Assembly (NCBI RefSeq): GCF_001424345.1
Contig: NZ_LMPF01000012.1
Coordinates: 249,662 to 313,661, forward strand
Source: Burkholderia sp. Leaf177
GTDB taxonomy: Bacteria > Pseudomonadota > Gammaproteobacteria > Burkholderiales > Burkholderiaceae
DNA: 64,000 nucleotides
Direction of reading: 5' to 3'
A program made the position numbers and the translations under genes. Numbering within the stretch: position 1 is the first letter of the stretch; the number at the start of each line of letters is the position of its first letter. The notes under the pieces were generated by a model. The model made no database searches. It saw only the letters and a program-made list of their open reading frames with translations, and had not been told where the DNA came from. Of the stretch, positions 3,067-50,320 are shown one piece after another.

Positions 3067-6000
3067 ATGACTAAACTTGCGGTCGTTCCGGTCAAGGCCC
3101 AATCCCGGTCTTTTCCGATTGTCGGGATTGGGGCTTCGGCTGGCGGTCTGCAAGCGGTCTCAGAGCTGATAGCAGAGTTTTCGCCGGACTGCGCCCTTGC
3201 GTGTATGGTCGTCATTCATCTCGATCCGGACCACGCGAGCTCGCTGCCTGAAATTCTGGCGCGCCATACGTCGTTACGCGTCGCCCAGGCGGTCGATGCA
3301 ATGGCAATCGAGACGGGTTATGTTTATGTAATCCCGCCGGGCGTCTCCATGACAGTGCGGGATCGTCGTGTCCGGCTACGTCCGCGTGACACGACCATGG
3401 GCCCGCCCATGCCCGTCGACGATCTTCTTGATTCGCTTGCAAAGGATCAGGGAACCAACGCGATAGGCGTCATTCTTTCCGGCACGGGGTCCGACGGCGT
3501 ACTAGGGTTGCAGTCTATCCATAGCGAAGGCGGGATCACGCTCGCACAAGACGAAGCGACGGCCGCGTTTACCAGCATGCCACGCCTGGCGGTCGCTCAA
3601 GGGTGCGTCGATCTGGTTCTGCCGCCGGTACGCATTGGCCAGGAAATCTGCAGGATGGGTATGCATCCTCACCTCGCAATTTTCCGACTGGAGCAGACGC
3701 CTCGGGTGGCCGACCCGACCGAGGAAAGCTTGAGGCCCGTGTTTCGAATCCTGAACAGCGCATGCAAGGTCGATTTCAGTCATTACAAGCGCGGCACCAT
3801 CTATCGCCGCTTGTCACGACGCATGGCGTTGCACCGGGTTGCAGACATCGACGACTACGTCGCGTTGCTTCGGTCCGACCCCTCGGAGCCGCTCGCGCTC
3901 GGCCGCGATCTACTTATTCGCGTGACCGAATTCTTCAGAGACCCGGAGGCATTCAATGCGCTGACACAACGCGTGTTTCCGCGATTCTTCGACGAACCGT
4001 CAAGGACTGAACCAATCCGCGTCTGGGTTCCCGGCTGTGCGAGCGGTGAGGAAGTGTATTCAATCGCGATATGCCTGTTCGAGTATTTCGGTGAGCACGG
4101 CATTACCACCAAGTTTCAGATTTTCGGCACGGATATTAGTGAAGAAGCCCTGCACACAGCCCGTTCAGGACGATATATCGAGAACATCGCTCGTAATGTC
4201 TCGCCAGAACGCCTCGAAAGATTCTTTGTGCGCGACGGCGAATATTACAAGGTCGAAAAGTACGTGCGCGACGTCTGTACGTTTGCTCGCCACAATGTGG
4301 CGGTTGATCCGCCGTTCTCGCGCATGGACCTGATCAGCTGCCGAAATCTTCTGATTTACCTCGATCCTGTATTACAGCGCAGCGTAATGCCGCTTTTTCA
4401 CTATGCTCTCAGGCCAACCGGCATTTTGATGCTGGGACCATCTGAGAGTGTCGGCTCGTTCTCCGGCCTTTTTGGAGTGCTCGAAAGCAAGCGCACGAAG
4501 CTCTATAACAAGAGAGAAGGCACCGGCCACACCGCCGCCAGACTGCTTTCACTGACGTCACCATCGCAAATAATGGCCTTGCCAGGACGCGCAGTGGCTA
4601 ACAAAACGACACCTAGCCACGCCCAGCGGCTCGTGGCGAAAGCCGAAGCACGAGTATTGGCACGTTATGCGCCGGCATTTGTTATTTGCGACGGGGAATT
4701 CAACATCGTCGAATTTCGCGGGGACACGACTCCGTTCCTCGTCAATCCCAGCGGTCCGCCGAGTACCAGTCTGCAACGCCTTGCGAAGCCCGAGATCTTT
4801 CTGCCACTCAGCCGAGCAGTCAGGGAAGCCGACACGAGCGGCACTGTAGTGCGCAAATCGGCAATCCGGTTGGCGTCTTCCGACGGTCCACGCGAAGCCA
4901 ACCTTGAAGTGCATCCCATCCAGTCGGATGAACTCGATGGCCGCTGGTTTCTCATCTTCTTCGAAGATGCAACGTCGCGGACGACACTTTTACCCACGTT
5001 CGCGCGTGGATCGATTGTGGACTCGGTTTCGCGCGCATCGCACCGCTGGATTGGCCGTCTTGGGACGCGCGGTCATACGCAAAAAGACGCGGAAATCGCG
5101 CGGCTGACCGCGGAGCTTACGGCCTCACGCGAACAGATCCGCAGCATGCTGGAAGATCACGAAAGTGCCCGGGAAGAACTCAAGTCGAGCGAAGAAGAGC
5201 TCATGTCGAGCAACGAGGAGTTTCAAAGCACCAACGAGGAACTCGAGACGACAAGAGCGGAGCTGCAGTCGATCAACGAGGAGCTATCGACATCGAACGA
5301 GGAGCTTCGTTATCGGAACGATGAATTGAAGTCGCTTCACGACCTGGCGAGCGGTGAGCGCGATTACGCTGATTCGCTGCTCGAGACAATCTTCGATCCC
5401 TTGCTGGTGCTTGACGCAAACCTACGGATCGTCCGGGCGAATCGCGCCTTCTACGAGACGTTTCGAACTGAACCGGAAGCCACGATTGGCGCAAGGCTGT
5501 TTGCATTAGGTAACGGTCAGTGGAATAGCGAAGCGCTCAAGGCGTTGCTGGAAGAGGTCCTGCCAGAGGAACAGTCGGTTCGAAATTTTTCCCTCACCCA
5601 CGATTTCCCGGGGTTGAGTCTGCGAACCATGCGTTTGAACGCAACACGCGTGGATTTCCCGGCACGTGCGCTTGTTCTGCTCACCATCAATGACGTGACC
5701 GAACAAAACGAAACGCTCAGTCAACTCCAGGCGGCGGATCGTACAAAGGACGAATTTTTAGCCATGCTCGCCCACGAGCTCCGCAATCCCCTGGCTGCGA
5801 TTCGAAATGGCCTGGACATCTGGGAGCGAGGTACTGCGGAACCCGCCATTGAACACAAGGCGCGGACGATTGCACAGCGCCAGCTCGAGCACGAGATCGG
5901 TTTGGTCGACGATCTCCTCGACGTGTCTCGAATCACGCGCGGAGTAATCAAGCTCAAGAAGACGCGGATCAATATTATCGATCTTGCACGACACGCAATG

Positions 6001-6855
6001 GACGCGATGCAGCCGGAGATTCATCGGCATCAACACACCGTTGTTATTTCTTTGCCTGAAGAGCCATTGTGGATTGAAGGTGACCCGCTGCGCATTGAAC
6101 AAATAGTCATGAACCTCGTGGGCAATGCAGTCAAGTACACGCCGCCCCATGGCCGCATTGAGGTAACGTTGTGCAGAGAAGACCAGGAGGTAGTGCTAAA
6201 AGTTTCGGACAACGGAATTGGCATGCACTCTGCGCTGCTTCCGACCATCTTTACGATCTTCGTTCAGGCCGACTCTTCGCTTGATCGAAAAGCTTCAGGT
6301 CTTGGCATAGGACTGGCGTTAGTGAGTCGTCTTACCGAATTGCACGGCGGGAGCGTGCAGGCGTTCAGCGAAGGGATCGACAAGGGCAGTGAGTTCGTCG
6401 TACGCTTCCCGGCCGTCCAGCCAGACATGCAGTCAGCGCCCGAAGACGCCGCTGTGCAGGCGACTGCCGTCGTCAAAACGCCCAAAAGGATCTTGGTGGT
6501 CGATGACAACGTCGATGCTGCAGACAGCACGGCAATGTTCTTGCGACTGGATCAGCACGACGTGCGCCTGGCGACAGATGGTTTGTCCGCGTTGGCAACT
6601 GCGCAGGAATTCCATCCGGAAGTCGTACTCCTGGACATCGGGTTGCCCGACATGGACGGCTATGAAGTAGCGCAGCGGCTTCGCGCCTTGCAAGAACATT
6701 CCGACACTGTGTTGATTGCACTAAGCGGGTATGGACAAGATGAGCACGTTGAGCGCTCCCGACTTGCAGGGTTCGACCATCACCTGGTTAAACCGGCCGA
6801 TCTCAAGGAGCTAGGCGCCTTGATTGCGATGCCACGTGGCGATGTTGCCCGCTGA
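3067..6855 (+). CDS. CheB-CheR-PAS-histidine kinase-receiver hybrid
   Basis: A 1262-residue multidomain signalling protein. Residues about 16-195 form a CheB methylesterase domain with Ser in 'GIGASAGG', His in 'VIHLDPDH' and Asp in 'GTGSDGV'. Residues about 215-480 form a CheR methyltransferase with 'EFFRDPEAF', the SAM-binding 'PGCASGEE' and 'MDLISCRNLLIYLDP'. Residues about 665-770 are a Glu/Ser/Asn-rich coiled coil made of 'SxNEEL'-type heptads. A PAS domain follows (about 775-880), then HisKA with the phospho-His in 'MLAHELRNP', an HATPase with N, G1 and G2 boxes ('NLVGNAVKY', 'DNGIGM', 'GLGIGLAL'), and a C-terminal receiver with Asp in 'LLDIGLPDMDGYE'. The CheB part lacks its own receiver. 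No chemoreceptor or flagellar gene is nearby, so the role is probably non-chemotactic. The gene is convergent with the stressosome operon. Confidence 0.93.
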   Translation: MTKLAVVPVKAQSRSFPIVGIGASAGGLQAVSELIAEFSPDCALACMVVIHLDPDHASSLPEILARHTSLRVAQAVDAMAIETGYVYVIPPGVSMTVRDRRVRLRPRDTTMGPPMPVDDLLDSLAKDQGTNAIGVILSGTGSDGVLGLQSIHSEGGITLAQDEATAAFTSMPRLAVAQGCVDLVLPPVRIGQEICRMGMHPHLAIFRLEQTPRVADPTEESLRPVFRILNSACKVDFSHYKRGTIYRRLSRRMALHRVADIDDYVALLRSDPSEPLALGRDLLIRVTEFFRDPEAFNALTQRVFPRFFDEPSRTEPIRVWVPGCASGEEVYSIAICLFEYFGEHGITTKFQIFGTDISEEALHTARSGRYIENIARNVSPERLERFFVRDGEYYKVEKYVRDVCTFARHNVAVDPPFSRMDLISCRNLLIYLDPVLQRSVMPLFHYALRPTGILMLGPSESVGSFSGLFGVLESKRTKLYNKREGTGHTAARLLSLTSPSQIMALPGRAVANKTTPSHAQRLVAKAEARVLARYAPAFVICDGEFNIVEFRGDTTPFLVNPSGPPSTSLQRLAKPEIFLPLSRAVREADTSGTVVRKSAIRLASSDGPREANLEVHPIQSDELDGRWFLIFFEDATSRTTLLPTFARGSIVDSVSRASHRWIGRLGTRGHTQKDAEIARLTAELTASREQIRSMLEDHESAREELKSSEEELMSSNEEFQSTNEELETTRAELQSINEELSTSNEELRYRNDELKSLHDLASGERDYADSLLETIFDPLLVLDANLRIVRANRAFYETFRTEPEATIGARLFALGNGQWNSEALKALLEEVLPEEQSVRNFSLTHDFPGLSLRTMRLNATRVDFPARALVLLTINDVTEQNETLSQLQAADRTKDEFLAMLAHELRNPLAAIRNGLDIWERGTAEPAIEHKARTIAQRQLEHEIGLVDDLLDVSRITRGVIKLKKTRINIIDLARHAMDAMQPEIHRHQHTVVISLPEEPLWIEGDPLRIEQIVMNLVGNAVKYTPPHGRIEVTLCREDQEVVLKVSDNGIGMHSALLPTIFTIFVQADSSLDRKASGLGIGLALVSRLTELHGGSVQAFSEGIDKGSEFVVRFPAVQPDMQSAPEDAAVQATAVVKTPKRILVVDDNVDAADSTAMFLRLDQHDVRLATDGLSALATAQEFHPEVVLLDIGLPDMDGYEVAQRLRALQEHSDTVLIALSGYGQDEHVERSRLAGFDHHLVKPADLKELGALIAMPRGDVAR

Positions 6856-6932: not shown

Positions 6933-8624
6933 CTAGTTAGCGACCGCTTTTGGTTCGGGTAAGCCTTTTAACAAGTCGAAGATCTTGTCGATAGGCATCG
7001 GCTTCGCGAAGTAATAATCGAATCCGGCTTCTATCGCTTCCTTGTGAAATTCCGCGGTCGCATAACCACTGAGCGCAATTAAAGTGAGCGGACTCGAGGC
7101 AAAGCGCTCGCGCAGATTTGCTGCAACGTCAAATCCCGACATGTCGGGTAATCCGATATCGATGACCGCCACCGTCGGGCTGAACGCCAACTCGGGAGAT
7201 AGCGCCGTTTTCCCATCGACCGCTATATGGCACGCGTGGCCGTCCATCACAAGCAAGGCCTCGAGTGCTTGCAGCGAGTCTTGGTTGTCATCCACGAGCA
7301 GAATTCTTTGCGCGTAACCGTTCGACTCGTCGACGACCGTCTCCAGCACTTCCGGTGCGGCGTTGTGAACGCGCGGCAATTCGACCACGAACGTGCTGCC
7401 TCGCCCAATCCCAAGGCTTTCGACTGTCACGGACCCACCGTGATCGCGCACGAGCCTTTGCACCACCGTCAAGCCGATACCCAGTCCGGAATCCTCCCGT
7501 CCGAGTCCCATCGATGCTTGAGCAAACAGATCGAAGACGCGCGGCAACATGCTTGCGTCAATGCCAATGCCGCGGTCGGATATGCTCACTCGTACATTGC
7601 TGTCGTCAGCCGATACAGAAACACGGATCTCGTCCGGTTGTGACGTGTAACGCGCGGCGTTATGAATGATGTTGCTGAATACCTGTTTGAGCCTGCCTGG
7701 ATCGACCCGGACCAGGATAGATTCGCTCGGGCAATCGACCAATACCCGGTGTCCGTGGCGCGTCGTCTCGGCTGCGGTCATTTCCACCGCGCCGTCTATG
7801 AGCGTGTCAATACAAACAATTTCCGTCTTCAGTTCGACTTTCCCGCGAGTCACGCGCGAGACATCGAGCAAGTCATTGACCATGTGCGAAAGATGCTGCG
7901 CCTGGCGGCCGATTACCGCGAAGGTTCTCGCTTGAATGTCGCTCATTGGTTCGGCGCTGCGCTGCATTAATTCAAGCGACAAAGAGATCGCCGAAAGTGG
8001 ATTACGAAGTTCATGCGCAAGCATCGCAAGAAACTCGTTCTTGCGCGCGTCGGCGTCTTCGAGCTCCGCTTTGTTCCGGCGCAACGCTTCGAGTGCCAGC
8101 AACATGTCGCGATTCTGACGCTCCAGTTCCTCGACTGGCGTCTGCGCTTTCCTGCGCGTGAGTTGCTCGACCAGGCCGCCCAACTGCGCTGTGGTCAGGC
8201 GCGGGGTATCGCGCGGCAGGAACATTTCCAACGATACGGTCGTACCCTGCCCAGCTTGCGAGGTGATGAAAAAGCCATCGACCATTCTCCGGCTTCCGGG
8301 AATGCCTATATTCGTGGACCTTCCGCCAAGAGATACGTCGGCCAGCAGTTCGTCCAGATTTTCGATGCCCGGGCCTTTGTCCGAGATCTGCGCGACGACA
8401 CATTGCATGTTGATTGCCGCGCTGGCATCGCCGACGAGAAACGTCAGCGTTCCTCCGCCGGCGAATTGCACTGCATTGCGCGCAATTTCAGAAATACCGG
8501 TAATGAATCGGGTGCGCTGCAGATTGTCGAGGCCGAACAACTCACCGACCTGACGGGACCGGTCGCGGATCGCGACGAGACTGAGGTTGCTGCTGATCGG
8601 AGTCGAGAGAATTCGATGAAGCAT
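6933..8624 (-). CDS. Hybrid histidine kinase with RsbT-like ATPase N-terminus
   Basis: 563 residues from ATG 8624. Residues about 1-130 are a GHKL ATPase of the RsbT/RsbW type ('TRFITGISEIARNAVQ', 'ISDKGPGIENL', 'GIPGSRRMVDGF'). A coiled linker follows, then HisKA with the phospho-His in 'MLAHELRNPL' (about 200), an HATPase ('NIIHNAARYT', 'SDRGIGID', 'GLGIGLTVV') and a C-terminal receiver with Asp in 'VIDIGLPDMSGFD' and Lys in 'YFAKPMP'. The start lies one base after the stop of the upstream phosphatase gene (TGA 8626, ATG 8624). It is the last gene of the rsbR-S-T operon, so it is the likely output of the stressosome: the RsbT-like domain could sense release of RsbT or dock on the stressosome. 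That role is inference. Confidence 0.9.
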   Translation of the reverse strand: MLHRILSTPISSNLSLVAIRDRSRQVGELFGLDNLQRTRFITGISEIARNAVQFAGGGTLTFLVGDASAAINMQCVVAQISDKGPGIENLDELLADVSLGGRSTNIGIPGSRRMVDGFFITSQAGQGTTVSLEMFLPRDTPRLTTAQLGGLVEQLTRRKAQTPVEELERQNRDMLLALEALRRNKAELEDADARKNEFLAMLAHELRNPLSAISLSLELMQRSAEPMSDIQARTFAVIGRQAQHLSHMVNDLLDVSRVTRGKVELKTEIVCIDTLIDGAVEMTAAETTRHGHRVLVDCPSESILVRVDPGRLKQVFSNIIHNAARYTSQPDEIRVSVSADDSNVRVSISDRGIGIDASMLPRVFDLFAQASMGLGREDSGLGIGLTVVQRLVRDHGGSVTVESLGIGRGSTFVVELPRVHNAAPEVLETVVDESNGYAQRILLVDDNQDSLQALEALLVMDGHACHIAVDGKTALSPELAFSPTVAVIDIGLPDMSGFDVAANLRERFASSPLTLIALSGYATAEFHKEAIEAGFDYYFAKPMPIDKIFDLLKGLPEPKAVAN

Positions 8625-8625
8625 G

Positions 8626-9624
8626 TCACACCGCCTTGACGACGACCACCGTTGCATCGTCGGAGTCGCGCGCAAAATCCCGATGCAAGACCGCGGCAAT
8701 CAGGCTCGGATGATGTTGAACCAGGCCCGGATGCCGGTTCAGGTTCCAGCGCGTCGACAAGCCGTCGGTGGTCAGGATCATCACGCTGCGGCCAGTCCAT
8801 TCAACCGACACTTCCCGGACCAGACGCATGTTGTAGCCGACCGTGCCATCTGTGGAAAGCAGGTGCTGATTGGTGTCGCCGGACACCACGATCCCGACGA
8901 TATTGCCGACCCCGGCAAACTGAGCGGAGCCTGCGGCTGTATCGATCTGCGCTACCGCCATCACCGCTCCCCGCGTTCCCTTGAGACCTTCGTGCGCATG
9001 ACGAAGGATGCTGGCGGGTGAATCGACGGCATCGGCTTTGCGAAAGATCTGCACCGCGCGTTGGGATGCGTCGGACGCAAGCGGGCCGTGTCCAAGGCCG
9101 TCGAGCAGCACCGTGCGCATCTGCCCGGCGCGTTCGCTGATACCCCACGCGTCGCCGCACACCTCCTGATTGGCCTTCGGCGTTGATCGCGCCCCGACCA
9201 TGAAGCGTGATGGATCGGCTGCTTGTGATTTGCCGTTCTGGATACGCGCGAGCACCGCGGTGCCCAGCCCCGCGACCGAATAAATGTCGAATAGATGCGA
9301 GCGGCGCGACATGGTGCCCAAACCAGCGCCAAGACTGCCGCCCGTTGAAAAGCCATCGCGTTGGGCTGCATCGAGATTCGCGATTCCCGGGCCGCGATCG
9401 AGCGCCAGCATTTCGATGCCGGGACCACCTTCGCTTGTGTATTGACGCAGCAGCATCTCGCCGCGACCGGCGTACTTGATGATGTTGGTCGCGGCTTCGC
9501 TCGCAACCAAAGCCGCGTCGGCCTGATAACGTTCGGAAAACCCCAGGCTTTGCGCTAATTTAATGGCGGTTCGCCGTGCTTCTGCTACGCCGCTTTGATC
9601 TGAAAGACTCAGCGCCTCTTCCAT
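8626..9624 (-). CDS. RsbT-like ATPase fused to PP2C phosphatase (RsbX-like)
   Basis: 332 residues in two parts. Residues about 1-135 are an RsbT/RsbW-type GHKL ATPase ('ASEAATNIIKYAG', 'LDRGPGIANLD', 'GAGLGTMSRR'). Residues about 145-332 are a small PP2C/SpoIIE phosphatase domain with metal-binding Asp residues in 'CGDAWG', 'LLDGLGHGP', 'TTDGLSTRW' and 'DSDDATVVV'. In Bacillus RsbX is a separate phosphatase that resets phosphorylated RsbR and RsbS; here it is joined to an extra ATPase module. It overlaps rsbT by 16 bases and is followed after one base by the hybrid kinase, so translation is probably coupled. It likely resets the stressosome after stress. Confidence 0.88.
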   Translation of the reverse strand: MEEALSLSDQSGVAEARRTAIKLAQSLGFSERYQADAALVASEAATNIIKYAGRGEMLLRQYTSEGGPGIEMLALDRGPGIANLDAAQRDGFSTGGSLGAGLGTMSRRSHLFDIYSVAGLGTAVLARIQNGKSQAADPSRFMVGARSTPKANQEVCGDAWGISERAGQMRTVLLDGLGHGPLASDASQRAVQIFRKADAVDSPASILRHAHEGLKGTRGAVMAVAQIDTAAGSAQFAGVGNIVGIVVSGDTNQHLLSTDGTVGYNMRLVREVSVEWTGRSVMILTTDGLSTRWNLNRHPGLVQHHPSLIAAVLHRDFARDSDDATVVVVKAV

Positions 9625-10019
9625 TGGGTAATGCTCACTGTAGTCCCTACATTCACTGTCGACGTAATTTCGAATTCGTTCACCAGACGGCGTGCGCCGC
9701 CTAGTCCCAGTCCCATGCTTTTAGCCGTGCTGAAGCCGTCTTCCAGCGCCCGATCGATATCCGGAATGCCCGGTCCCTGATCTTCAAACACAAGTTTGAT
9801 GCCAATGCGGCCGTTGTATTCAACCTCGTTGACCGTAACCGTCCCCCCTTTACCGTGCACTAGCGTATTTCGCGCAAGCTCACTCGCGGCCGTCACGAAC
9901 TTGGTGCGTTCCAGCGTGCCAAAAGCCATTCTTGTCGCGAGTTCCTGGATGAATTTACGTGCGCCATTGACTTGATCGGACGTGCGTATTTCAAGGACCG
10001 CAGGGCTCAGAGTGACTAT
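9609..10019 (-). CDS. rsbT: RsbT serine/threonine kinase of the stressosome, non-canonical start
   Basis: Small GHKL-type kinase that phosphorylates RsbS and RsbR. Conserved blocks are 'ASELARNTLVHG', 'EDQGPGIPDID' and 'GLGLGGARRLVNEF'. The first ATG in frame (9929) falls inside the conserved fold and would remove about 30 residues. The upstream codons still encode a typical RsbT N-terminus ('EIRTSDQVNGARKFIQELA'). No ATG, GTG or TTG exists in that part of the frame. A GGAGA Shine-Dalgarno site lies 6 bases before an ATA codon at 10019-10017, which overlaps the rsbS stop as ATAG. I therefore propose AUA initiation (136 residues), with CUG at 10010 as the alternative. Gene identity is firm; the start is inference. 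Confidence 0.82.
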   Translation of the reverse strand: MVTLSPAVLEIRTSDQVNGARKFIQELATRMAFGTLERTKFVTAASELARNTLVHGKGGTVTVNEVEYNGRIGIKLVFEDQGPGIPDIDRALEDGFSTAKSMGLGLGGARRLVNEFEITSTVNVGTTVSITQWKRR

Positions 10020-10402
10020 GAGGATTCTCCGGTTTCGTCCGAGGGCTCGTCGAGCGACTGACGCAACAGCGCCATGCCTTTGTCGATATCGAGTGCGGTG
10101 CGGATTCCTTTGAGCGACATCCCGAGTTCAACCAACGTGATCGCGACTGCAGGGCGCATTCCGACGAGGACCGTGGTGGCATCGAGCACCCGGGCCATGG
10201 CGGCTATGTGTCCCAAGGTACGACCTATGAACGAGTCAACAATCTCCAGCGCCGAGATGTCAATCAACACACCGCGTGCGCGTGTTTTCTCGATACGCGA
10301 CGTCAGATCGTCCTGAAGATTAAGCACCAGTTCGTCGTGAAGCTCGACCTGGATAGATACCAATAGAAAGTCGCCCAGCTTGAGAACCGGAATTTGTTCC
10401 AT
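10016..10402 (-). CDS. rsbS: RsbS STAS-domain stressosome antagonist
   Basis: 128-residue single STAS domain. The motif 'DISALEIVDSFIGR' carries Ser57, which aligns with the RsbT-phosphorylated Ser59 of Bacillus subtilis RsbS. 'VGMRPAVAITLVELG' is the usual C-terminal half of the fold. RsbS and RsbR proteins form the icosahedral stressosome core that sequesters RsbT until stress triggers phosphorylation. The gene begins two bases after the rsbR stop and overlaps the proposed rsbT start. The tail 'LDEPSDETGESS' is acidic and goes beyond the STAS fold. Confidence 0.92.
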   Translation of the reverse strand: MEQIPVLKLGDFLLVSIQVELHDELVLNLQDDLTSRIEKTRARGVLIDISALEIVDSFIGRTLGHIAAMARVLDATTVLVGMRPAVAITLVELGMSLKGIRTALDIDKGMALLRQSLDEPSDETGESS

Positions 10403-10404
10403 GC

Positions 10405-11271
10405 TTATTCGCCTGCTTTAACGCTACCAAGCTTGCCTACCGTTAACCCGACGCGGCGCAGCGCAATCTTGAGCGCTTCAGCAAGCGTCGCCTTGGTGAC
10501 CACGTCGCCCAAGTCGACACCCAGGTGCACGATGGTCTGTGCAATCTGTGGGCGAATGCCGCTGATGATGCACTCGGCGCCCATCAAGCGTGCGGCTGCC
10601 ACGGTCTTGAGCAAATGTTGCGCGACCAGCGTATCTACCGTGGGAACACCCGTGATATCGATAATCGCGATTGCCGCTTCATTTTCCACGATGGAATCAA
10701 GCAGGCTTTCCATGACGACCTGGGTACGTTCGCTGTCTAGGGTGCCGATCAAAGGCAACGCTACGATCGAATCCCATAGCTTGACCACGGGAGTCGTCAA
10801 ATCGAGGAGTTCCTGCTGCTGCCGCTCGATAATTTGCTGGCGGCTCTTTTGATACTCGGAGACGGTAACCAGACCGAGCTTGTCCAGAACTTGAGTCAGC
10901 TTCCAGAATTCTTCGTTCAAGAGATCGGCGTCGCCGCCATTTTCCCGGAGGCTGTCGAACAACGGCTTCTTTAGCGAGAAAACAAAGGTCGCAGTGTCTT
11001 CGGATGAAAATCCCTGGACCACGCGTTCGCGCGACAGCTTCGCGAGATGGGCCCTGACGTCGTCCCATTCGGCGCCGCTGATTTGCTCCGAATAGTCATT
11101 TTTTACGGCAGACGCAAACACTGAAAGAAAGGCACGCGAGCTTTCCCTGACTTCGGCCTCGGACAATCCACCTTGACTCGTCGCACCAGAAAGTTGCTCG
11201 TTTATCCATGCGTTGAGAATTTTTGCTTCGTCTTTTTGTAAAATGTCGGCTAAACCAGCGCGCTTGCTCAA
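10405..11271 (-). CDS. rsbR: RsbR-type stressosome sensor (N-terminal sensor plus STAS)
   Basis: About 288 residues. Residues 1-150 form an all-helical sensor domain resembling the RsbRD_N type. A coiled linker rich in Gln and Glu ('QQIIERQQQELLD') joins it to a C-terminal STAS domain. 'IDITGVPTVDT' carries the Thr that matches phospho-Thr205 of B. subtilis RsbRA, and 'GTLDSER', 34 residues earlier, has Ser where RsbRA has Thr171. Two TTG starts are possible (11283 and 11271). TTG 11271 is preferred because GGAG lies 6 bases upstream, and that GGAG falls inside the longer version. It is the first gene of the five-gene stressosome operon. The stimulus sensed is not evident. Confidence 0.9.
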   Translation of the reverse strand: MSKRAGLADILQKDEAKILNAWINEQLSGATSQGGLSEAEVRESSRAFLSVFASAVKNDYSEQISGAEWDDVRAHLAKLSRERVVQGFSSEDTATFVFSLKKPLFDSLRENGGDADLLNEEFWKLTQVLDKLGLVTVSEYQKSRQQIIERQQQELLDLTTPVVKLWDSIVALPLIGTLDSERTQVVMESLLDSIVENEAAIAIIDITGVPTVDTLVAQHLLKTVAAARLMGAECIISGIRPQIAQTIVHLGVDLGDVVTKATLAEALKIALRRVGLTVGKLGSVKAGE

Positions 11272-11554
11272 GTCTTTCTCCAAGTTTTAAAGGCGATATT
11301 CGCCTAAGCAATTATATGTGACAACCATCGAACGGCCCGTAAGAGCCAAGTTTAATGCCCGGTGACAAAGTATAGACATTCCAGACCCTAAAAGACCTTG
11401 GACAACGACCCCGCGCGTAGCCTTAAATGCACTAGCGAGAACGCGGTTTGACAAAAGAATTGCTGGAAACGGCCGGCATTTTTATTTTGGACTTAGCGAT
11501 TTGACCGCTATGCATCGGGCTAAGGAAACAACCCTGAAGAGATTCCGGATTCTC

Positions 11555-19951: not shown

Positions 19952-20869
19952 ATGAGCCGAATAATCGTCAGAGCGTCGCTTGTGCTTGCTTGCTCCACCG
20001 TACTCCTGCTGGCGGGGTGCGCCGCGCCGCCTCAGAATGTGGCGGGCAACGCAACCCTTACCCCGCCGACACGCGTCACGCGAGACCTCGTACGTCTGCC
20101 GCCGCCCAAGGGCCGGGTTCTCGCAGCGGTTTATGGTTTCCGCGATCTGACCGGCCAGTACAAACCTTCGCCCGACAGTTCGTTCTCGTCGCAAGTAACG
20201 CAAGGAGGCGCGTCGTTTCTCGTGGCGGCAATGCGCGACTCGGGTTGGTTCACGCCGGTCGAACGGGAGAATCTCCAGGACTTGCTGACTGAACGCAAGA
20301 TCATGCGAGCGCTCGAAACACCCGACGACAAGAATCGCGTCGTTGCGCAGATCGGCGCGCTGGCGCCGGCGAACGTCATTCTGGAGGGCGGCATTGTCGC
20401 CTTCGACTCCAACGTGAAGACGGGCGGCGCAGGCGTGGCGTATCTCGGCATTAGCGCATCGCAGCAGTATCGCGTGGACCAGGTAACCGTCAATCTGCGC
20501 ACAGTCGATATCCGCAACGGCCAGATTCTCAACAGCGTCTCCACCACGAAGACCATCTATTCATATCAGGTGGATGTAGGCGTCTACAAGTTCGTCGGCT
20601 TCAAAGATCTCTTGCAGGCCGAAGTGGGCATGACGCGCAATGAGCCGCAACAGCTCTGCGTGAAAGAAGCTATCGAGTCTGCTGTCGTGCATTTGATCGT
20701 CCAGGGGCTGAAAAACCAGACCTGGGCGCTGAAGGACGACAAGGATTGGTACGACCCCACCGTGCAGCGCTATTTGCAAGAGAACCAGAGCTATGTCGCC
20801 GATATGGACCAGCTCGATCCGCCCCAGGCATCCGACCCGATCAACCCTGACAAGAGCGCGGGCATTTGA
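19952..20869 (+). CDS. csgG: CsgG curli secretion channel lipoprotein
   Basis: 305 residues. The lipoprotein signal peptide ends in the lipobox 'LLAGC' (Cys24). The CsgG domain shows 'LAAVYGFRDLTGQYKPSP', 'WFTPVERENLQDLLTERKI', 'VILEGGIVAFDSNVKTGGAG' (transmembrane hairpin region) and 'VGVYKFVGFKDLLQAEVGMTRNEP'. CsgG forms the nonameric outer-membrane pore for curlin export. The C-terminal tail after about residue 265 is longer than in E. coli. Confidence 0.94.
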   Translation: MSRIIVRASLVLACSTVLLLAGCAAPPQNVAGNATLTPPTRVTRDLVRLPPPKGRVLAAVYGFRDLTGQYKPSPDSSFSSQVTQGGASFLVAAMRDSGWFTPVERENLQDLLTERKIMRALETPDDKNRVVAQIGALAPANVILEGGIVAFDSNVKTGGAGVAYLGISASQQYRVDQVTVNLRTVDIRNGQILNSVSTTKTIYSYQVDVGVYKFVGFKDLLQAEVGMTRNEPQQLCVKEAIESAVVHLIVQGLKNQTWALKDDKDWYDPTVQRYLQENQSYVADMDQLDPPQASDPINPDKSAGI

Positions 20870-20889
20870 GCGCTTACATGGAGTGTGCA

Positions 20890-21438
20890 ATGAAACCTGA
20901 ATACATCGTGCGTGGCGTAGCCCGGACCCAGACTCACCTGATGATCGCGATGGTCGTCGCGATCACGACGACGGCGGCATTCGCGGGGGATTTATCGTCG
21001 GTGTCCGACTTCGGCGCGGGCGAACCGGCTTTCATGACCACACGACTAAGGCAAAGCGCGACTGTCGATCAGCGCGGAGCCGATAACCAGTTCCAGGGAA
21101 GGCAACTTGGCAGCAACGGACTGCTCTCGATCCAGACAGGTGCTGCGAACACGGCGAATCTGGTTCAAACAGGCGCGCGCAACTGGCAAGCGTTGTCGCA
21201 GGCGGGCAATGGCAACCAGTACGCGGGAAATCAGGCGGGCGCCTACAACACCGCGAGCGTGATCCAGCAAGGCAGCAATAACTACGGGTTGATCGATCAG
21301 GCGGGAACGGCCAATCGGGCGTCGATCACGCAAAGAGGCAATGACAATCGCGCGACGGTCGTGCAAGTCCGCTCGTATAGCGGCGTGGAAGTTCTACAGA
21401 ACGGTAACGGCGCACGAGCGCTGGTGTTGGCGCGGTAG
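20890..21438 (+). CDS. csgB: CsgB-like minor curlin (nucleator)
   Basis: 182 residues from ATG 20890, chosen because GGAG lies 6 bases upstream; an upstream TTG frame overlaps the csgG end. A signal peptide ends near 'TTAAFAGDL'. The mature part has curlin repeats of about 22 residues with the pattern 'Q.G..N.A...Q', for example 'QGSNNYGLIDQAGTANRASITQRGNDNRATVVQ'-like segments (kept partial here). The last repeat departs from the pattern and ends 'NGARALVLAR', as expected for a nucleator whose C-terminus is not amyloid-like. The csgB label rests on order and size. Confidence 0.78.
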   Translation: MKPEYIVRGVARTQTHLMIAMVVAITTTAAFAGDLSSVSDFGAGEPAFMTTRLRQSATVDQRGADNQFQGRQLGSNGLLSIQTGAANTANLVQTGARNWQALSQAGNGNQYAGNQAGAYNTASVIQQGSNNYGLIDQAGTANRASITQRGNDNRATVVQVRSYSGVEVLQNGNGARALVLAR

Positions 21439-21603
21439 AAGCAAAGCAGCAGCGGTATCGGAAGGCAAGCGGCATCGGCGTGCAAGCGCAGATGGCGAAC
21501 GGGTGAACAGCGCGTCGATCGATTGCAACGACTGAACCCCGCAAGCGGGACATTTTCAATGAGACGTTTCACCACCACTATCTCTACAAGAGGGTTATCA
21601 ATC

Positions 21604-22941
21604 ATGAAGATCAAGGCATCCGTCATCGCAATGGGGTTTATCGCGCTCGCATCGACAAGCGTGTATGCCAGTACAGGCAATCAGGATTCGATCACGATGA
21701 TCGGTTCCGGCAACACCGCGGCCATCGATCAGAATGTCACTCAGGGCGATCGTGTGTCGATCGATCAGCGCGCGGGATCGGGAGCCGTTGCAAACAACCT
21801 GGCGACCGTCAGCGAAGCCGCATCGATTGGCAACAGCGTGGCGGTCAACCAGTCGAGCGGAGGCAATACGACTTCCATTTCGACCAGCGGCGGCGGCCAG
21901 AACATCACCAATGTCCTGCAAAATGGCGCGAGCACATCGGAGGCGACCGTCAGTCAACGAGACGAGATTGCCAACGGCGTATCGATCACGCAGTCGCTTG
22001 GCGGTGGCGGCGTAGCGTCCGTCACGTCGAACTACGGCGCTGGCGACTACACGACGATTGTGCAGACCGGTCCCAACGCCGCCCATGTTTCGCAGAGCAC
22101 GGCATCGAATGACTTCACCGCGATATCCCAAAGCGGCGCCGGCGCGTCCGCGACCGTCGGCCAGACGTTCTCGTCCGGCAACACCACGGTCATCAATCAG
22201 GGAGGTCTGCTGAACGCCGCCACCGTCACGCAATCGGGCTCCAACAGCAACTCGACGACCGTGAGCCAGTACGGTTTGATCGGCAACAACGCTACGGTCA
22301 GCCAGGCGGGCAGCTCGCTGAACTCGACCGGGATTGTCCAGGCCGGGATCCTCAATACGGCGTCGGTATCGCAGACGGGTTCCTTCGGCAACTCCACGTC
22401 CATTTACCAGGAGGCCGCCGGCGATGTAGCGACGGTATCGGATTTCAACGCCAGCAACGGCCGAGTGGATATCAGACAGTCCGGAACGCGAGAACGCGTC
22501 GCGGTCGCGCAGGCTTCGGAAAACGGCTCTTCCACAACGGTCGCGCAAAGCGGTATTGGTCAGGGAAGCGTCACCACCATGCAGGAGAACGGCGGTGCCA
22601 ACAGCATCAGCGTGACGCAGTCGAACACTTCGCTTTTCGGCGCTGCAAACGTGGCCAGCCTTACGCAAGATGGCGCGGTTGGCTCGTCGCAAATACTCAC
22701 GCAAACTGGTTCGGCTAACCGGACTACCGCTTTCCAGGCGGGTTTCGAGGATACGCTGCTGGCATCGCAGTCGGGCAGCGCTAACGTGCTGTATGCGTCG
22801 CAGTCCGGCGATGGCAATTACGCGCAGACATCGCAAATCGGCACTGGCAACAGTGCTTCGATCACGCAGGTCGGCGGCGGCAACGCGGCGAACATCACCC
22901 AAAACGGCTCGCATAACGTTGCAACCATCGCCAGCCACTGA
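21604..22941 (+). CDS. csgA: Long curlin-repeat protein (major curli subunit candidate)
   Basis: 445 residues from ATG 21604 (AGAGGG 9 bases upstream); the frame extends upstream without support. A signal peptide ends near 'STSVYASTG'. The rest is a continuous array of degenerate curlin repeats of about 20-23 residues ('QSGSNSNSTTVSQ', 'QIGTGNSASITQVGGGNAANITQ'). By length there are about 18 repeats, against 5 in E. coli CsgA (151 residues). Strand-turn-strand units rich in Gln, Asn, Ser and Thr predict an amyloid solenoid. Export would be through the CsgG pore just upstream. The central repeats are the least regular. A terminator follows. Confidence 0.82.
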   Translation: MKIKASVIAMGFIALASTSVYASTGNQDSITMIGSGNTAAIDQNVTQGDRVSIDQRAGSGAVANNLATVSEAASIGNSVAVNQSSGGNTTSISTSGGGQNITNVLQNGASTSEATVSQRDEIANGVSITQSLGGGGVASVTSNYGAGDYTTIVQTGPNAAHVSQSTASNDFTAISQSGAGASATVGQTFSSGNTTVINQGGLLNAATVTQSGSNSNSTTVSQYGLIGNNATVSQAGSSLNSTGIVQAGILNTASVSQTGSFGNSTSIYQEAAGDVATVSDFNASNGRVDIRQSGTRERVAVAQASENGSSTTVAQSGIGQGSVTTMQENGGANSISVTQSNTSLFGAANVASLTQDGAVGSSQILTQTGSANRTTAFQAGFEDTLLASQSGSANVLYASQSGDGNYAQTSQIGTGNSASITQVGGGNAANITQNGSHNVATIASH

Positions 22942-45711: not shown

Positions 45712-46689
45712 TCAACTCGTTTTCGGTTGCGCATGAAACATCTGGCTAAGAAGCTCCCGGATCTGGGTCTCTTGCGCGCTGGTAAGCACGCCCGATTTGA
45801 TTTTCACGGTGATGCCGCTGACGTCTTTAGTAATAGATCCAGCATGTTCTTTTCCGGAAAAGAACTTGTCGATGCTGCGCTCGTTCGCTGATCTCGGCGA
45901 TGTTGCCTGCTGAACCGCCATCGCTTTTATCGCTGATGCGACCTTGCCCTGATCCAAGTCGCCTTTGACGACAAGCGGCCAAAGCTCTGCTGCTGCCCTC
46001 AATCCGCTTTCTCCGTGCTTTTTTATCGCTGCGACGATCGCTTGGGCTGCGGTTCCACCAAGCAACGTCGGCTGTACATCGAGGTCCTTCTGAATAAACT
46101 CCGGAAGACTTTCGAACGATAGAAACTGATAAAGCCCGCTCCGCGACATTCCCAGAGCCTCGGCCATCCGCTTTCTATCGGGAAATTCTTTTTCCGTTTG
46201 CCTTATGGAAGTCGCGACTTCGTAATCGGACAGGTCGTCGCGACTCACGTTTTCGACAAGCGCCAGCACTGCCATATCCGAGTCGGAGCACTCGACAACC
46301 ACAGCTTTTATAGTGTCGAGTCCCATCAACTTGTGTGCACGCCAACGGCGTTCGCCCGCCACGATCTGATAAGACTCCTGCGCACGGCGGACCACGATGG
46401 GCTGCATCAATCCGACTTCACGGATGGACTCGGCCAATCCTGTCAGCTTCGCGTCGTTGAAAACGCGCCTCGGCTGCCAAGGATTCGCGACGATATCGGA
46501 CACGGCCAATTGCGATGGAGCACCCGTGGCCTCCAATTCCTGAACACGGAGCTGTGCCACTGCTAACGCGCCGGCAAGTCCAGGGGCCGTTTGAGTTTTG
46601 GAGCTACGCTTTACTTCGTCCTGATTGATCGACGACGTCGCCCGAATACCGGCCGTCTTAGCCAGCAATTGTTCACGCATGTTGCTCAT
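45712..46689 (-). CDS. parB: ParB-family centromere-binding partition protein
   Basis: 325 residues from ATG 46689; the GGAGG-type site just upstream supports this start. The N-terminal CTP-binding ParB domain has 'NPWQPRRVFN', 'PIVVRRAQESYQIVAGERRWRAHKLMG' (the GERRxRA motif) and 'ALVENVSRDDLSDYEVA' (ENxxRxDL motif). A helix-turn-helix for parS binding is 'RMAEALGMSRSGLYQFLSFESLP'. The ATG overlaps the parA stop (ATGA). Four identical palindromes downstream are its likely binding sites. Confidence 0.93.
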   Translation of the reverse strand: MSNMREQLLAKTAGIRATSSINQDEVKRSSKTQTAPGLAGALAVAQLRVQELEATGAPSQLAVSDIVANPWQPRRVFNDAKLTGLAESIREVGLMQPIVVRRAQESYQIVAGERRWRAHKLMGLDTIKAVVVECSDSDMAVLALVENVSRDDLSDYEVATSIRQTEKEFPDRKRMAEALGMSRSGLYQFLSFESLPEFIQKDLDVQPTLLGGTAAQAIVAAIKKHGESGLRAAAELWPLVVKGDLDQGKVASAIKAMAVQQATSPRSANERSIDKFFSGKEHAGSITKDVSGITVKIKSGVLTSAQETQIRELLSQMFHAQPKTS

Positions 46690-47897
46690 TGCGCATTCCT
46701 CCATTTTTCAGCGTAGATGTCGTCGACCCATCGGCAGTAATCTATTAAAGGCTGCTTGACTCGTTGCAGCGACTTCGACGCGCTATGCGTGCTGCTGACG
46801 TCGAAGACCGTTGAAAAGGCGAGCGCCCCGGTGCTCATGACCGAACTCGCAGGCACTTCGATTGGATGCAACCAACTCTCGTAAGCGCTTTGTGCCCATG
46901 CACGGACGATTGGCGCGGAAGAGGTACGTCCATAATCGACTCTCGAAAGCAGCAGCGAAACGAAATCGTACTTTTTATCCGCCTCGTACTTTATAAAGCT
47001 TTTCGAGACATCGGAGAAAAGCCGCCAGAAAGACAGCGAACTAATGAAATCCAGATTCTCCGGGACCATCGGCATCACCATGGCATCCGCCGCGAGGAGA
47101 GCGTTCAAATTTAGGTACGAGAGGGAAGGCGACGTATCCATCAGGATGTAGTCGTAATGCTTGCGCAACGGCTCGAGGCCTTGACGGAGCACTGTCCAAA
47201 ACCTGAATCCCGGCCTCATTTTTTGCATTGCCGGGAGATGAAATTCAGCGCCGATCAACTCGGTATGGGCGGGAATCACATCGAGGCCATCCCAATACGT
47301 CGATTGAACACGTGCTTCTAGGCCGCCCTCGATGTCTTGGTCGTATATGAACGGCAGCACGGTGTCGTCGGGTGTCACGTCTTTTTCCGCATACAAACCA
47401 CAAAGCTCGGAGAGTGACGCCTGCGGGTCCAAATCGACGACCAGCACTTTTCGACCACGCAGCGTCAGCCCTTGTGCTAGGCACATGGTGGTTGTTGTTT
47501 TCGCCGAGCCGCCTTTTAACTGGGCGGTGATTATGATTTTGCCTTCAGCTTCACGGGTTCCGGTAACCAACGGTGTCTGATAGATATCAGATACCTTTTG
47601 AACCCACACTCTTGCTTCTTCTAACGTGAAGGTCCGAGTTCGCCCCGTTCCGGCTGCGGTGCCCGGAGGCAATTCACCATCGCTTTTGGTCGCCAGATAC
47701 TGAACCTGCGAATGCGCTATGTTGCACATCTCGGCAATCTCGCCCGTTTTGAACACGGGCGCGGCCTTGCGCGGACGGGGCGCCAAAATGGTGTCACGCA
47801 GTTCGTCGGTGAAAATTGAAACCTTTTCGGCGAACTGGCTAATTTGTTCAAAGTGAACAGTTCTATCTACAGCGGGAAGTTGGCTTGTTTTCGCCAT
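46686..47897 (-). CDS. parA: ParA partition ATPase with N-terminal DNA-binding domain (type Ia)
   Basis: 403 residues. The deviant Walker A motif 'LKGGSAKTTTTMCLAQGL' is near 128-145, 'VLVVDLDPQASLSEL' is the Walker A' strand and 'YDYILMDTSPSLSYLNLNAL' the Walker B region. Residues about 1-105 are an extra domain with a MerR-like helix-turn-helix ('FKTGEIAEMCNIAHSQVQYLA'), as in P1-type ParA proteins that repress their own operon. ParA drives segregation of the replicon by ParB-stimulated ATP cycles on the nucleoid. Confidence 0.93.
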   Translation of the reverse strand: MAKTSQLPAVDRTVHFEQISQFAEKVSIFTDELRDTILAPRPRKAAPVFKTGEIAEMCNIAHSQVQYLATKSDGELPPGTAAGTGRTRTFTLEEARVWVQKVSDIYQTPLVTGTREAEGKIIITAQLKGGSAKTTTTMCLAQGLTLRGRKVLVVDLDPQASLSELCGLYAEKDVTPDDTVLPFIYDQDIEGGLEARVQSTYWDGLDVIPAHTELIGAEFHLPAMQKMRPGFRFWTVLRQGLEPLRKHYDYILMDTSPSLSYLNLNALLAADAMVMPMVPENLDFISSLSFWRLFSDVSKSFIKYEADKKYDFVSLLLSRVDYGRTSSAPIVRAWAQSAYESWLHPIEVPASSVMSTGALAFSTVFDVSSTHSASKSLQRVKQPLIDYCRWVDDIYAEKWRNAQ

Positions 47898-48060
47898 TCT
47901 GAGGTTTTTCCAAGAATTTTATTGAAGCTCAGAATACCGGAAATGCTTGAAAGTTTCTGTAGAAATTGCTTGTTAATAAAGCAAGAAAGCCCAAACAATC
48001 AGCGGCGTATCGTTTCCTAAGGTTTGAAAGACTAAAGTTGGCGCTCAGAGCAAAGAGAGC

Positions 48061-48084
48061 TGCCTGACAAAGGGAAGTCAGGCA
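48061..48084. repeat. Perfect 8-bp inverted repeat at the edge of the origin
   Basis: TGCCTGAC (48061-48068) and GTCAGGCA (48077-48084) are separated by 8 bases. It lies 164 bases from the parA start and 9 bases before the first iteron. It could be the ParA operator or an origin element. Confidence 0.5.
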
Positions 48085-48092
48085 CGACGCAA

Positions 48093-48296
48093 GGTGAGGT
48101 CAATTGTGCACTTTTGCATTTTTTAAGCGCACCAAACTGACGATCCAAGATCAAGGTGAGGTCGTTTGTGCTGCGCCTGCACACAGTCACTCAAAACTCA
48201 GCGTTTCCGCACAAAGAACCTCACCATTAGTCATTGCTTGGGTTAAGCGACCGAAAATCGAGCGCGGCTTTGCTTGTGCGCACAATAAACCTCACC
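48093..48296. repeat. Iteron group A (4 copies, two in each orientation)
   Basis: 17-bp iterons at 48093-48109 and 48155-48171 read forward (GGTGAGGTCAATTGTGC, GGTGAGGTCGTTTGTGC); those at 48209-48225 and 48280-48296 read reverse. The group is thus symmetrical around about 48190. Confidence 0.88.
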
Positions 48297-48546
48297 ATCC
48301 GTCGCAGTCTTTAAAGATCACACGCTCATGTCTCCGGGATCGACCCCTCTCATCTGAAAACGCGTTCAATGTGCTAAAGCTGAATACATAAATTCATGCG
48401 AAAGACGCACGCGTCATCGTATTGGTCATCGAAACTCGCTTTCCACGTGAATCACGTGTTTGTTTGTTTTTTTAAAGAAGTAAACCGGCCAACCTACCAA
48501 CAGCGGCAAATTATTTACTTAAAATTCAATACCTTACCCTCAGATA

Positions 48547-48855
48547 AGTGAGGTTTGTTGTGACAATGGTGAGGTTCGATGTGCACGAAAGTGAGGTTCT
48601 TTGTGTGGCAACGGTGAAAGTTATTCCCCGCAAAGGTGAGGTTCGGTGTGCGCGTCACATCGCTTGGCGAATCAGGTGAGGTTGGCTGTGCGGAAGATAG
48701 GAAAAATCATCCAGCGCCATATGGGAATAGGGGCCGGCAACGAGGGCAGAACCTGCAGGTGAGGTTTGTTGTGCCCAGGTGAGGTTGATTGTGCAGAACC
48801 CTTATGCGCGGCGTTTCCCGCGCCGCCTTTAAAGTCATGGTGAGGTTGTTTGTGT
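48547..48855 (+). repeat. Iteron group B (8 direct copies)
   Basis: Direct copies of GGTGAGGTTNNTTGTGC start at 48547, 48568, 48590, 48635, 48675, 48758, 48778 and 48839. Closest spacings are 20-22 bases, two helical turns; a degenerate copy near 48613 fills the gap between the third and fourth. The last copy ends at the first base of the rep -35 box. Confidence 0.9.
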
Positions 48856-48882
48856 TGACAGCTCACCGTCACATGCTATCTT
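48855..48882 (+). promoter_or_regulatory. Promoter of the rep gene
   Basis: TTGACA (48855-48860), 16-bp spacer, TATCTT (48877-48882), 31 bases before the ATG of rep. The final iteron abuts the -35 box, so binding of Rep there would repress its own transcription. Confidence 0.65.
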
Positions 48883-48913
48883 TCCGAAATCTAAACGATC
48901 TCCGGATAAGCGA

Positions 48914-50320
48914 ATGGCTGCCGACGACAAGCCGGGTGACGCTGCGCCGAAAGTGACGCCCAGGCAAATGGCGCTCGCGCTGTTCGAAGATATGTTCGAC
49001 CTGGGCATGCCCATTAGCGAGGCCAACCGCGAGATCGGCTACCAGCGCAACAACTTCTTCACTCAAGTCGTCAACATGGGGCTGCCTGCGCGGCGCTTCC
49101 TGGATGCCGCCTATTTCATCGTTGCACAGGAGCAGGAAGCGCGTGACCAGTACGACGTCGAACTGAACTATTTCAAGTGGTTGATGCGCTACGACAGCCG
49201 CAACCTCAAGCACTTGCGCACGATCGCGGAGGAAGCGCAGGACGCGAAGATTCAGGTCACCGATACACCGCTCGACCGCGAGCCCAACGAGGACGACTTG
49301 TGGGTCTCGGTCCAACTGATGGGGATGGTCGGCTTTCATCGCGGACGCATTCGCTTCGACGTGCATCCGCGCCTGGTCCCGCAAATTCGCGATCCAAGGA
49401 AATCCCACTGGCTGAGCCTGCGCATTTCGACCGCTTTTACTCGCAGCCTTTCCCGCGCGATCTACGACCAGGTGCTTCCGAGCGTCCCGAATGGCCGAAC
49501 GGAATGGATCCGGCTTGAAGACATGCGAAGCTGGCCTGGCAAGATGGGCGCGAACGCGGCCATCTTCAAATACTTCAAGCGAGACTGGCTCGAGCCGGCG
49601 GTGCGTGAGATCAACGAGGTATCGGACATCGAGTTGACGTATGAGACCAAGACCGAGTCCATTACGTCGAAACGGATCGACCGCATCAGGTTTCTGTTGA
49701 AGCGCAAGGATACGGCCGACGCCGCTTTGGCCAGCCTTGCAGACGCGAGCCATCTATACAAGATTCTGAAGGACGAGTTCAATCTCTCCACCATCCAGTT
49801 CACCGAGATTTCCGAGAATCGCGAAGTGTGGACGGATTCACGCATTCAGCAAGCCGTGGAATACACGCGTTTCAAGATCAATCGCGGGCTGGTGAAAAAG
49901 AGCCCCGCCGGCTACTTGATGCGAGCACTGCGCGACAACTGGAAGATGTCCGAAGCCGAAAGGACGATGGTCGATGTTCAGGCAAAACTGCTGACCGACG
50001 AAACCGACGCCGAAGTGGCGAAGAACGAAACCCGCAGTTCGGTTGCTCGGACTATCGCGTCACGTGAAGAAGAAACGCGTGCGCGCATGAACGACGACTC
50101 GCGTAAAGGCCGCGAACATTTCAACGCCTGCGATGCAAGAACGAGGAAGGAGTTGCTTCGTACATGGATTACGTCCAGCCAGGGCAAACTCATGCTCCGA
50201 CGGATGAAGCTCGACGCTGCGACCGTGACGGAAGAGGACGTGGTTTCGAATGCAGACCTTGTGTGGTACTTGGGGCAATTCGTGTTCGGGCGGCTGAATT
50301 CATCGCGTGCGGCGGCATGA
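48914..50320 (+). CDS. Replication initiator protein (RepA/Rep_3-like)
   Basis: 468 residues. It lies directly beside iterons and parAB, which fixes its role more firmly than sequence motifs do. The central region (about 130-290) has the look of tandem winged helices of plasmid initiators ('LMGMVGFHRGRIRFDVHPRLVPQI', 'SHWLSLRISTAFTRSLSRAIYDQV', 'EINEVSDIELTYETK'). It is longer than classic 280-300-residue Rep proteins: the C-terminal 150 residues are charged ('ASREEETRARMNDDSRKG') and are typical for initiators of Burkholderia-type second chromosomes. It binds iterons to open the origin. Confidence 0.88.
   Translation: MAADDKPGDAAPKVTPRQMALALFEDMFDLGMPISEANREIGYQRNNFFTQVVNMGLPARRFLDAAYFIVAQEQEARDQYDVELNYFKWLMRYDSRNLKHLRTIAEEAQDAKIQVTDTPLDREPNEDDLWVSVQLMGMVGFHRGRIRFDVHPRLVPQIRDPRKSHWLSLRISTAFTRSLSRAIYDQVLPSVPNGRTEWIRLEDMRSWPGKMGANAAIFKYFKRDWLEPAVREINEVSDIELTYETKTESITSKRIDRIRFLLKRKDTADAALASLADASHLYKILKDEFNLSTIQFTEISENREVWTDSRIQQAVEYTRFKINRGLVKKSPAGYLMRALRDNWKMSEAERTMVDVQAKLLTDETDAEVAKNETRSSVARTIASREEETRARMNDDSRKGREHFNACDARTRKELLRTWITSSQGKLMLRRMKLDAATVTEEDVVSNADLVWYLGQFVFGRLNSSRAAA

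Follow-up and report, generated by a model that had tools for sequence, protein, structure and literature searches.

Several stressosome systems have been described, with and without the classical sigma-factor cascade. The operon rsbRSTUVW-sigB-rsbX of Bacillus subtilis encodes RsbR, RsbS and RsbT with conserved phosphosites (PMC9237108), and the action of RsbT on the STAS core of RsbR and RsbS is established (PMC9237128, PMC9237108). In Vibrio vulnificus, rsbR-S-T are followed by a PP2C phosphatase gene and two-component genes (VvD1/VvD2), with no SigB (PMC9237108, PMC10014275). Histidine kinases of other stressosome operons carry a stressosome-facing N-terminal RsbU_N domain and a coiled-coil linker (PMC9237108, PMC12143880), and in Moorella thermoacetica an RsbU_N-GGDEF protein under RsbT likewise provides an output that is not a sigma factor (cited in PMC12143880). 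Stressosomes wired to two-component signalling have been described before, as have kinases bearing RsbU_N (PMC9237108, PMC10014275, PMC12143880). Here we analyse a 64,000-nucleotide stretch of Burkholderia sp. Leaf177 (contig NZ_LMPF01000012.1; hereafter the window) that carries a five-gene operon on the minus strand (11271..6933), comprising rsbR, rsbS, rsbT, an ATPase-PP2C fusion (X) and a histidine kinase (K) that begins with an RsbT-like domain.

We consider it moderately probable that this operon encodes a complete stressosome module with K as its output, and that the N-terminal domain of K is a retired RsbT paralogue that docks on STAS domains and steers the kinase. The sequence itself shows the gene order, the domains, the conserved phosphosites, the loss of kinase motifs in K and the linker lengths, and searches found no sigma-B, RsbU or RsbU_N. 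We infer the docking on STAS, the competition with RsbT, the direction of the signal and all steps beyond the receiver.

Residues 1-143 of K match the operon's RsbT at 38% over 104 amino acids (E 9e-21), residues 1-139 of X match RsbT at 36% over 117 (E 6e-19), and K matches X at 34% over 88 (E 2e-7). Because the best HATPase_c_2 stretch found by Pfam in K is its C-terminal catalytic domain, assignment of the N-terminal domain rests on these pairwise comparisons and on a tree of 117 ATPase domains (RsbT, X and K) from 39 hand-picked loci. In this tree the K clade and the X clade each received a support of 100, and the RsbT domains did not form one clade (best 31 of 39, support 82), a topology consistent with X and K as offshoots of RsbT-like stock. 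Pairwise matches and tree together confirm an earlier observation, made from the sequence by a first-pass annotation, that three of the five proteins carry RsbT-like ATPase domains, RsbT itself included.

Motif retention separates K from its two relatives. RsbT of the window keeps the N-box, G1, lid and G2 motifs, and across loci RsbT and X keep all four with few exceptions. The lid Asp is present in 128/129 RsbT and 122/122 X domains (the lid Gly in 121/129 RsbT domains), compared with 11 of the 113 K domains of the locus sets A and B defined below. The N-box and G1 are kept in the K domains of these two sets, although set B is uninformative on the N-box because the scan that produced it selected for SEIARN. 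In set C, the N-box Asn and G1 Asp are absent from 12/12 K domains. In a comparison between intact (112) and degenerate (13) K domains, we found Arg20, Arg24, Thr38, Arg39, Glu46, Arg49, Arg113 and Asp116 retained in all 13, with Asn50 and Asp82 gone and Gly58 and Gly84 mostly gone. Five of the retained positions (Arg20, Thr38, Glu46, Arg49 and Arg113) are shared with RsbT. Loss of the ATP site combined with retention of positions common to RsbT points most readily to a protein-binding role; we therefore read the K domain as a retired RsbT paralogue that is probably no longer a Ser/Thr kinase and would dock on the RsbR/RsbS core. The degenerate domains would then predict the residues that matter for docking.

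The association of this domain with the stressosome genes is widespread. When 398 genomes of the family were searched at the protein level with the K N-terminal domain, 116 had a match at E 0.001, and RsbT itself accounts for many of these matches. Three sets of loci were compared, with gene order called by our own hidden Markov models: set A (42 loci: the window, L005 from Paraburkholderia sp. D15, and 40 regions chosen from the family protein-search matches), set B (the best 80 of 570 relatives in a named-genome scan with the SEIARN pattern) and set C (20 hand-picked loci with matches in RsbT-sized frames and no listed K match). The full R-S-T-X-K order was present in 33/42, 63/80 and 12/20 loci, respectively, and several loci without it are cut by contig ends. 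By their titles, full-order loci belong to Beta- and Alphaproteobacteria, a Moraxellaceae metagenome-assembled genome (MAG), cyanobacteria, Bryobacterales, Rokubacteria, an Anaerolineae MAG and a planctomycete MAG, and the RsbT-like N-terminus on K recurs with the gene order across these groups; claims about any single phylum are soft because many full-order loci are MAGs. A class-wide search with a K profile matched 248/369 genomes at E 0.001, from which we take no frequency because most of the listed weak matches lie in long frames and resemble ordinary kinase ATPases.

Among loci with the full order, a further kinase directly follows K in 20 (set A), 30 (set B) and 12 (set C), typically with the architecture receiver, HisKA, HATPase, receiver in the cases inspected. 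The window represents the subtype in which K includes a receiver and is not followed by another kinase. Within the best 80 of 570 relatives, the named K closest to that of the window comes from Caballeronia sordidicola (88%). Recurrence of the order across phyla rules out the kinase as a strain-specific accident. Gene-order comparison, proposed by the first-pass annotation, thus shows a wider distribution than its author supposed, and the suggestion that the kinase is the output now appears likely, the gene link holding across phyla; the sequence evidence supports K as the best candidate output. As a separate observation, rsbR of L005 (6358-7229) is annotated as two overlapping pieces, and the open frames suggest a frameshift.

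The architecture of K was surveyed in 30 full proteins (that of the window and 29 hand-picked from set B). All 30 show HisKA and HATPase, 27 a receiver, and none RsbU_N, PAS, GAF or HAMP at E 0.01, leaving the RsbT-like domain as the sole recognised input. The phospho-accepting His of HisKA stands 76 residues from K Thr128 in 33 and 104 residues from it in 44 of 108 distinct proteins, and the step of 28 residues between these two classes (77/108 proteins) equals exactly four heptads. Ten further K proteins lack the searched His motif, at least six of them having HDFNN instead. Linkers of this kind have been argued to be interchangeable between PP2C phosphatases, kinases and cyclases, and the same paper argues that RsbT acts on RsbU via one (PMC12143880).

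At the gene level, the operon holds what characterises a stressosome (RsbRST) module, namely an RsbR with sensor and STAS domains, the RsbS Ser and two RsbR Thr phosphosites, and an RsbT with ATP motifs (Table 1). At E 0.01, RsbRD_N and STAS are the sole Pfam matches of RsbR, with no globin. The RsbS Ser57 column holds S in 127/128 sequences and T in one, whereas the RsbR columns of Thr214 and Thr246 (numbered from TTG 11271) hold T in 121 and 120 of 127 sequences, respectively, with S in six each and one gap. Ser57 had been named by the first-pass annotation and stands; its RsbR Thr218 becomes Thr214, given a start at TTG 11271. The longer listed open reading frame opens at TTG 11283, the start adopted earlier, and TTG 11271, which lies behind a GGAG, looks likelier. 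Frames, Pfam and junctions confirm the tight packing described before, in which no gap or overlap exceeds 16 bases: a 2-base gap between rsbR and rsbS, a 16-base overlap of rsbT and X, a 1-base gap between X and K and, provided that rsbT begins at ATA 10019, a 4-base overlap of rsbS and rsbT. Promoter and terminator scans gave scores under the shuffled means.

Table 1. Genes of the operon and the input domain of K (window coordinates).
Feature	Position	Strand	Description
rsbR	10405..11271	-	RsbRD_N sensor domain + STAS; PF14361 E 2.3e-26, PF01740 E 3.2e-13
rsbS	10016..10402	-	Single STAS domain, Ser57; PF01740 E 6.2e-9
rsbT	9609..10019	-	GHKL switch kinase; PF02518 + PF13581; probable AUA start
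X	8626..9624	-	RsbT-like ATPase + SpoIIE-type PP2C phosphatase; PF13581 E 1.6e-7, PF07228 E 3.7e-10
K	6933..8624	-	RsbT-like N-terminal domain (amino acids 1 to ~138), linker, HisKA, HATPase_c, receiver (Response_reg)
K input domain	8196..8624	-	RsbT-like, without lid motif DGxS/T; 38% to RsbT

To follow a sigma-B route beyond the operon, the whole genome (6.8 Mb, 26 contigs) was searched. It holds one SpoIIE domain, that of X, and no second SpoIIE phosphatase. No RsbU_N was found in the genome, the B. subtilis control being detected by the same search, and none of seven SigBFG matches genome-wide exceeded the cut-off (best 130.6 versus 234.35 bits). Four STAS matches were obtained, namely rsbR and rsbS themselves plus two proteins that, judged by eye, are a SulP-type permease and an Mla-type STAS protein. 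HATPase_c_2 gave 21 matches, and the 18 located outside the operon are all in open frames of at least 399 amino acids, so that no stand-alone RsbW-sized protein was found. The statement that sigma-B, RsbU and RsbW are missing, made earlier for the operon, agrees with these genome-wide searches. A partner-switching set encoded elsewhere (RsbU, RsbV/RsbW, SigB), which the first-pass annotation had named as one finding that would overturn its proposal, was not found in this search, and the absence of a second SpoIIE, of RsbU_N and of SigB above cut-off speaks against sigma-B partner switching.

The arrangement suggests that the stress sensor governs a kinase directly and not via a sigma factor. 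In the mechanism we propose, RsbR, RsbS, RsbT and the resetting phosphatase X would form the module, and the histidine kinase K its output. The N-terminal domain of K would dock on the STAS domains of RsbR and RsbS at the docking place of RsbT; the STAS core is the presumed partner because RsbT acts on it, and the geometry is borrowed from the RsbT-STAS docking modelled in PMC9237128. On sensing of stress by RsbR, RsbT would phosphorylate RsbS Ser57 and RsbR Thr214 and Thr246, and phosphorylation of the STAS domains would alter the docking of K. This change may pass through the coiled coil to the HisKA dimer, setting autophosphorylation and transfer to the receiver, and X would strip the phosphates and reset the core.

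Several observations weigh against this mechanism. RsbT does not share Asp116, has mostly Lys in place of Arg39 and has Arg at position 24 in 71%, and the conserved K positions may not form one surface. Linkers of 31/108 proteins have other lengths (e.g. 100, 103, 105), mostly off the heptad rule. A K profile matched the YycG HATPase (E 1.5e-9) and SpoIIAB (4e-9) about equally in the PDB, and a PDB search with the K N-terminal domain as a single sequence gave nothing convincing. In Vibrio, an interaction between RsbT and VvD1 could not be demonstrated (PMC9237108). The window K also keeps the N-box Asn and the G1 motif, and for that reason may still bind ATP. In line with this last point, the N-terminal domain of K could be a GHKL module in its own right, either active in phosphorylating STAS serines or sensing and reporting ATP, and the N-box Glu/Asn and G1 Asp/Gly are kept in 33/34 K domains of set A as well. 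We nevertheless regard such a module as distinctly improbable, since few K domains retain the lid Asp and the 12 set C K domains without the ATP-site Asn/Asp hold the same place in the operon.

The K domain is moreover not indispensable, because six RSTX operons are followed by kinases that lack it according to our own models (L075, L082, L192, L194, L195 and L196; two from set A and four from set C). These loci, and the lack of an output visible around the window subtype, where no neighbouring gene is widely conserved, fit the kinase being a co-transcribed passenger of a stressosome that acts via X or an unlinked target. Such a role is very improbable in our view, given that the R-S-T-X-K order is held across several phyla and the K domain is the sole input domain seen in 30 kinases. 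Somewhat better placed, though still unlikely, is a scheme in which free RsbT is the activator, leaving the core under stress and pairing with the RsbT-like domain and linker of K to order the kinase dimer. RsbT is known to bind RsbU_N plus a coiled-coil linker and to drive dimerisation (PMC12143880), and in the rsbRST operon at L197 the kinase (RsbU_N, PAS, HisKA_3 and HATPase by Pfam) has RsbU_N in place of the K domain, making RsbT-to-kinase signalling likely in kin operons. K, however, lacks RsbU_N, and pairing of RsbT with an RsbT-like domain is without precedent in the excerpts of the literature searched. The first-pass annotation had left the switch between released RsbT and the kinase's own RsbT-like domain; since K lacks the known RsbT receptor and has lost kinase features, we lean to the latter, as a docking domain, and favour the former less.

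In the operons at L072, L073, L079 and L197-L199, the PP2C is plain and the kinase lacks the K domain. One genus has a second RsbT-like gene next to its rsbRST operon, encoded on the opposite strand (L197:6468-6956, checked with Pfam; L072, L073, L079, L198 and L199).

The start of rsbT is unusual. Its frame contains no ATG, GTG or TTG before 9929, and a start there would lie past the first helix, whose Arg is conserved in 128/129 RsbT domains. The candidate start is AUA at 10019-10017 (-), which overlaps the rsbS stop as ATAG. Twenty codons ahead of the conserved Arg, 38 of 122 distinct rsbT genes have ATG, GTG or TTG and 26 have ATC or ATA; among the remaining 58, a usual start is present at another place in the frame in all but two. 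For 19 of the 26 ATC/ATA genes, the open frame up to codon -14 offers no usual start at all, and in 18 of these 19 a GGAG-type (Shine-Dalgarno) motif lies 5-13 bases ahead of the ATC/ATA codon. Five cases also offer a rival near-cognate start with such a motif: three have ACG at -8, one CTG at -21 and one ATC at -21. At 23 AUC/AUA loci the codon's A doubles as the third position of a codon read in the rsbS frame (TCA 14, CCA 8, the stop TGA 1), compared with A at the third base of about 6% of CCN/TCN codons in the same operons; these loci are related, and independent events are fewer than the counts. The next usual start beyond codon -14 in L046 comes 56 codons past the Arg and would remove the N-box, and the Paraburkholderia sp. 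D15 record begins rsbT at a later ATG.

The simplest reading of these sequences is that rsbT initiates at AUC/AUA overlapping the end of rsbS. In Listeria, ATA and ATT starts of rsbW are reported to have arisen as selected laboratory mutations, to occur in two strains and to cut translation, and usual starts are strongly preferred in the sigB operon (PMC13068326). We met no description of a non-canonical rsbT start in the excerpts of the stressosome literature searched. If true, the rsbT start would be a natural, conserved start-codon control of the dose of a switch protein. A broader picture, which we hold only tentatively, would combine such AUC/AUA-limited RsbT in some Burkholderiales with kinase dimers plugged by retired RsbT domains onto the RsbR/RsbS shell in several phyla, turning the stressosome into a kinase array in place of a sigma-factor switch.

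Around the operon, no conserved output gene was found: the three widest neighbour clusters, among them one receiver protein and one kinase-like protein, each occur in 3/17 loci, with flanks of varying length. The three Hpt domains detected genome-wide in a search for a partner are all encoded on contigs other than that of the operon. A convergent CheB-CheR-PAS-HisKA-HATPase-receiver protein (3067-6855, +) belongs to no cluster common to at least 3 of the 17 loci. For a receiver-domain protein (2322-2837, -; 172-amino-acid open frame), similar counterparts were seen in L045 and L093, where they lie 2-3 kb away from the operon. Elsewhere in the window lie a curli-type locus with CsgG and a curlin-repeat protein (19952-22941, +) and ParA-, ParB- and Rep3-like genes (45712-50320) indicating a plasmid- or chromid-type origin on the operon's contig; a relative's copy of the operon sits on a Paraburkholderia plasmid.

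Set against the described systems, the window agrees with the Vibrio-type arrangement in having a two-component gene, K, directly downstream of RSTX. The earlier proposal that a stressosome is here joined to two-component signalling is supported, but the idea is not new (PMC9237108, PMC10014275). In V. vulnificus, however, RsbR is globin-coupled rather than an RsbRD_N protein, RsbX is single-domain whereas the PP2C is fused to an ATPase here, and the excerpts mention no RsbT-like domain on VvD1 (PMC9237108, PMC10014275). Unlike in B. subtilis, RsbU, an RsbW-sized protein, RsbU_N and SigB were not found in the genome of the window, and the M. thermoacetica output differs in being a GGDEF protein with RsbU_N. 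In contrast to the RsbU_N kinases, the N-terminal domain of K is a homologue of RsbT and not of RsbT's receptor. We met no RsbT-like domain on a histidine kinase in the excerpts of the literature searched (including PMC4976288 and PMC9237128), although the 2005 and 2017 Pane-Farre reviews of RsbRST output modules may show some. The apparently new part relative to the literature searched is the RsbT-like input domain on the kinase, the two-component wiring being known; a kinase with an RsbT homologue as its only recognised input would provide Gram-negative stressosomes that lack SigB with a direct signal route.

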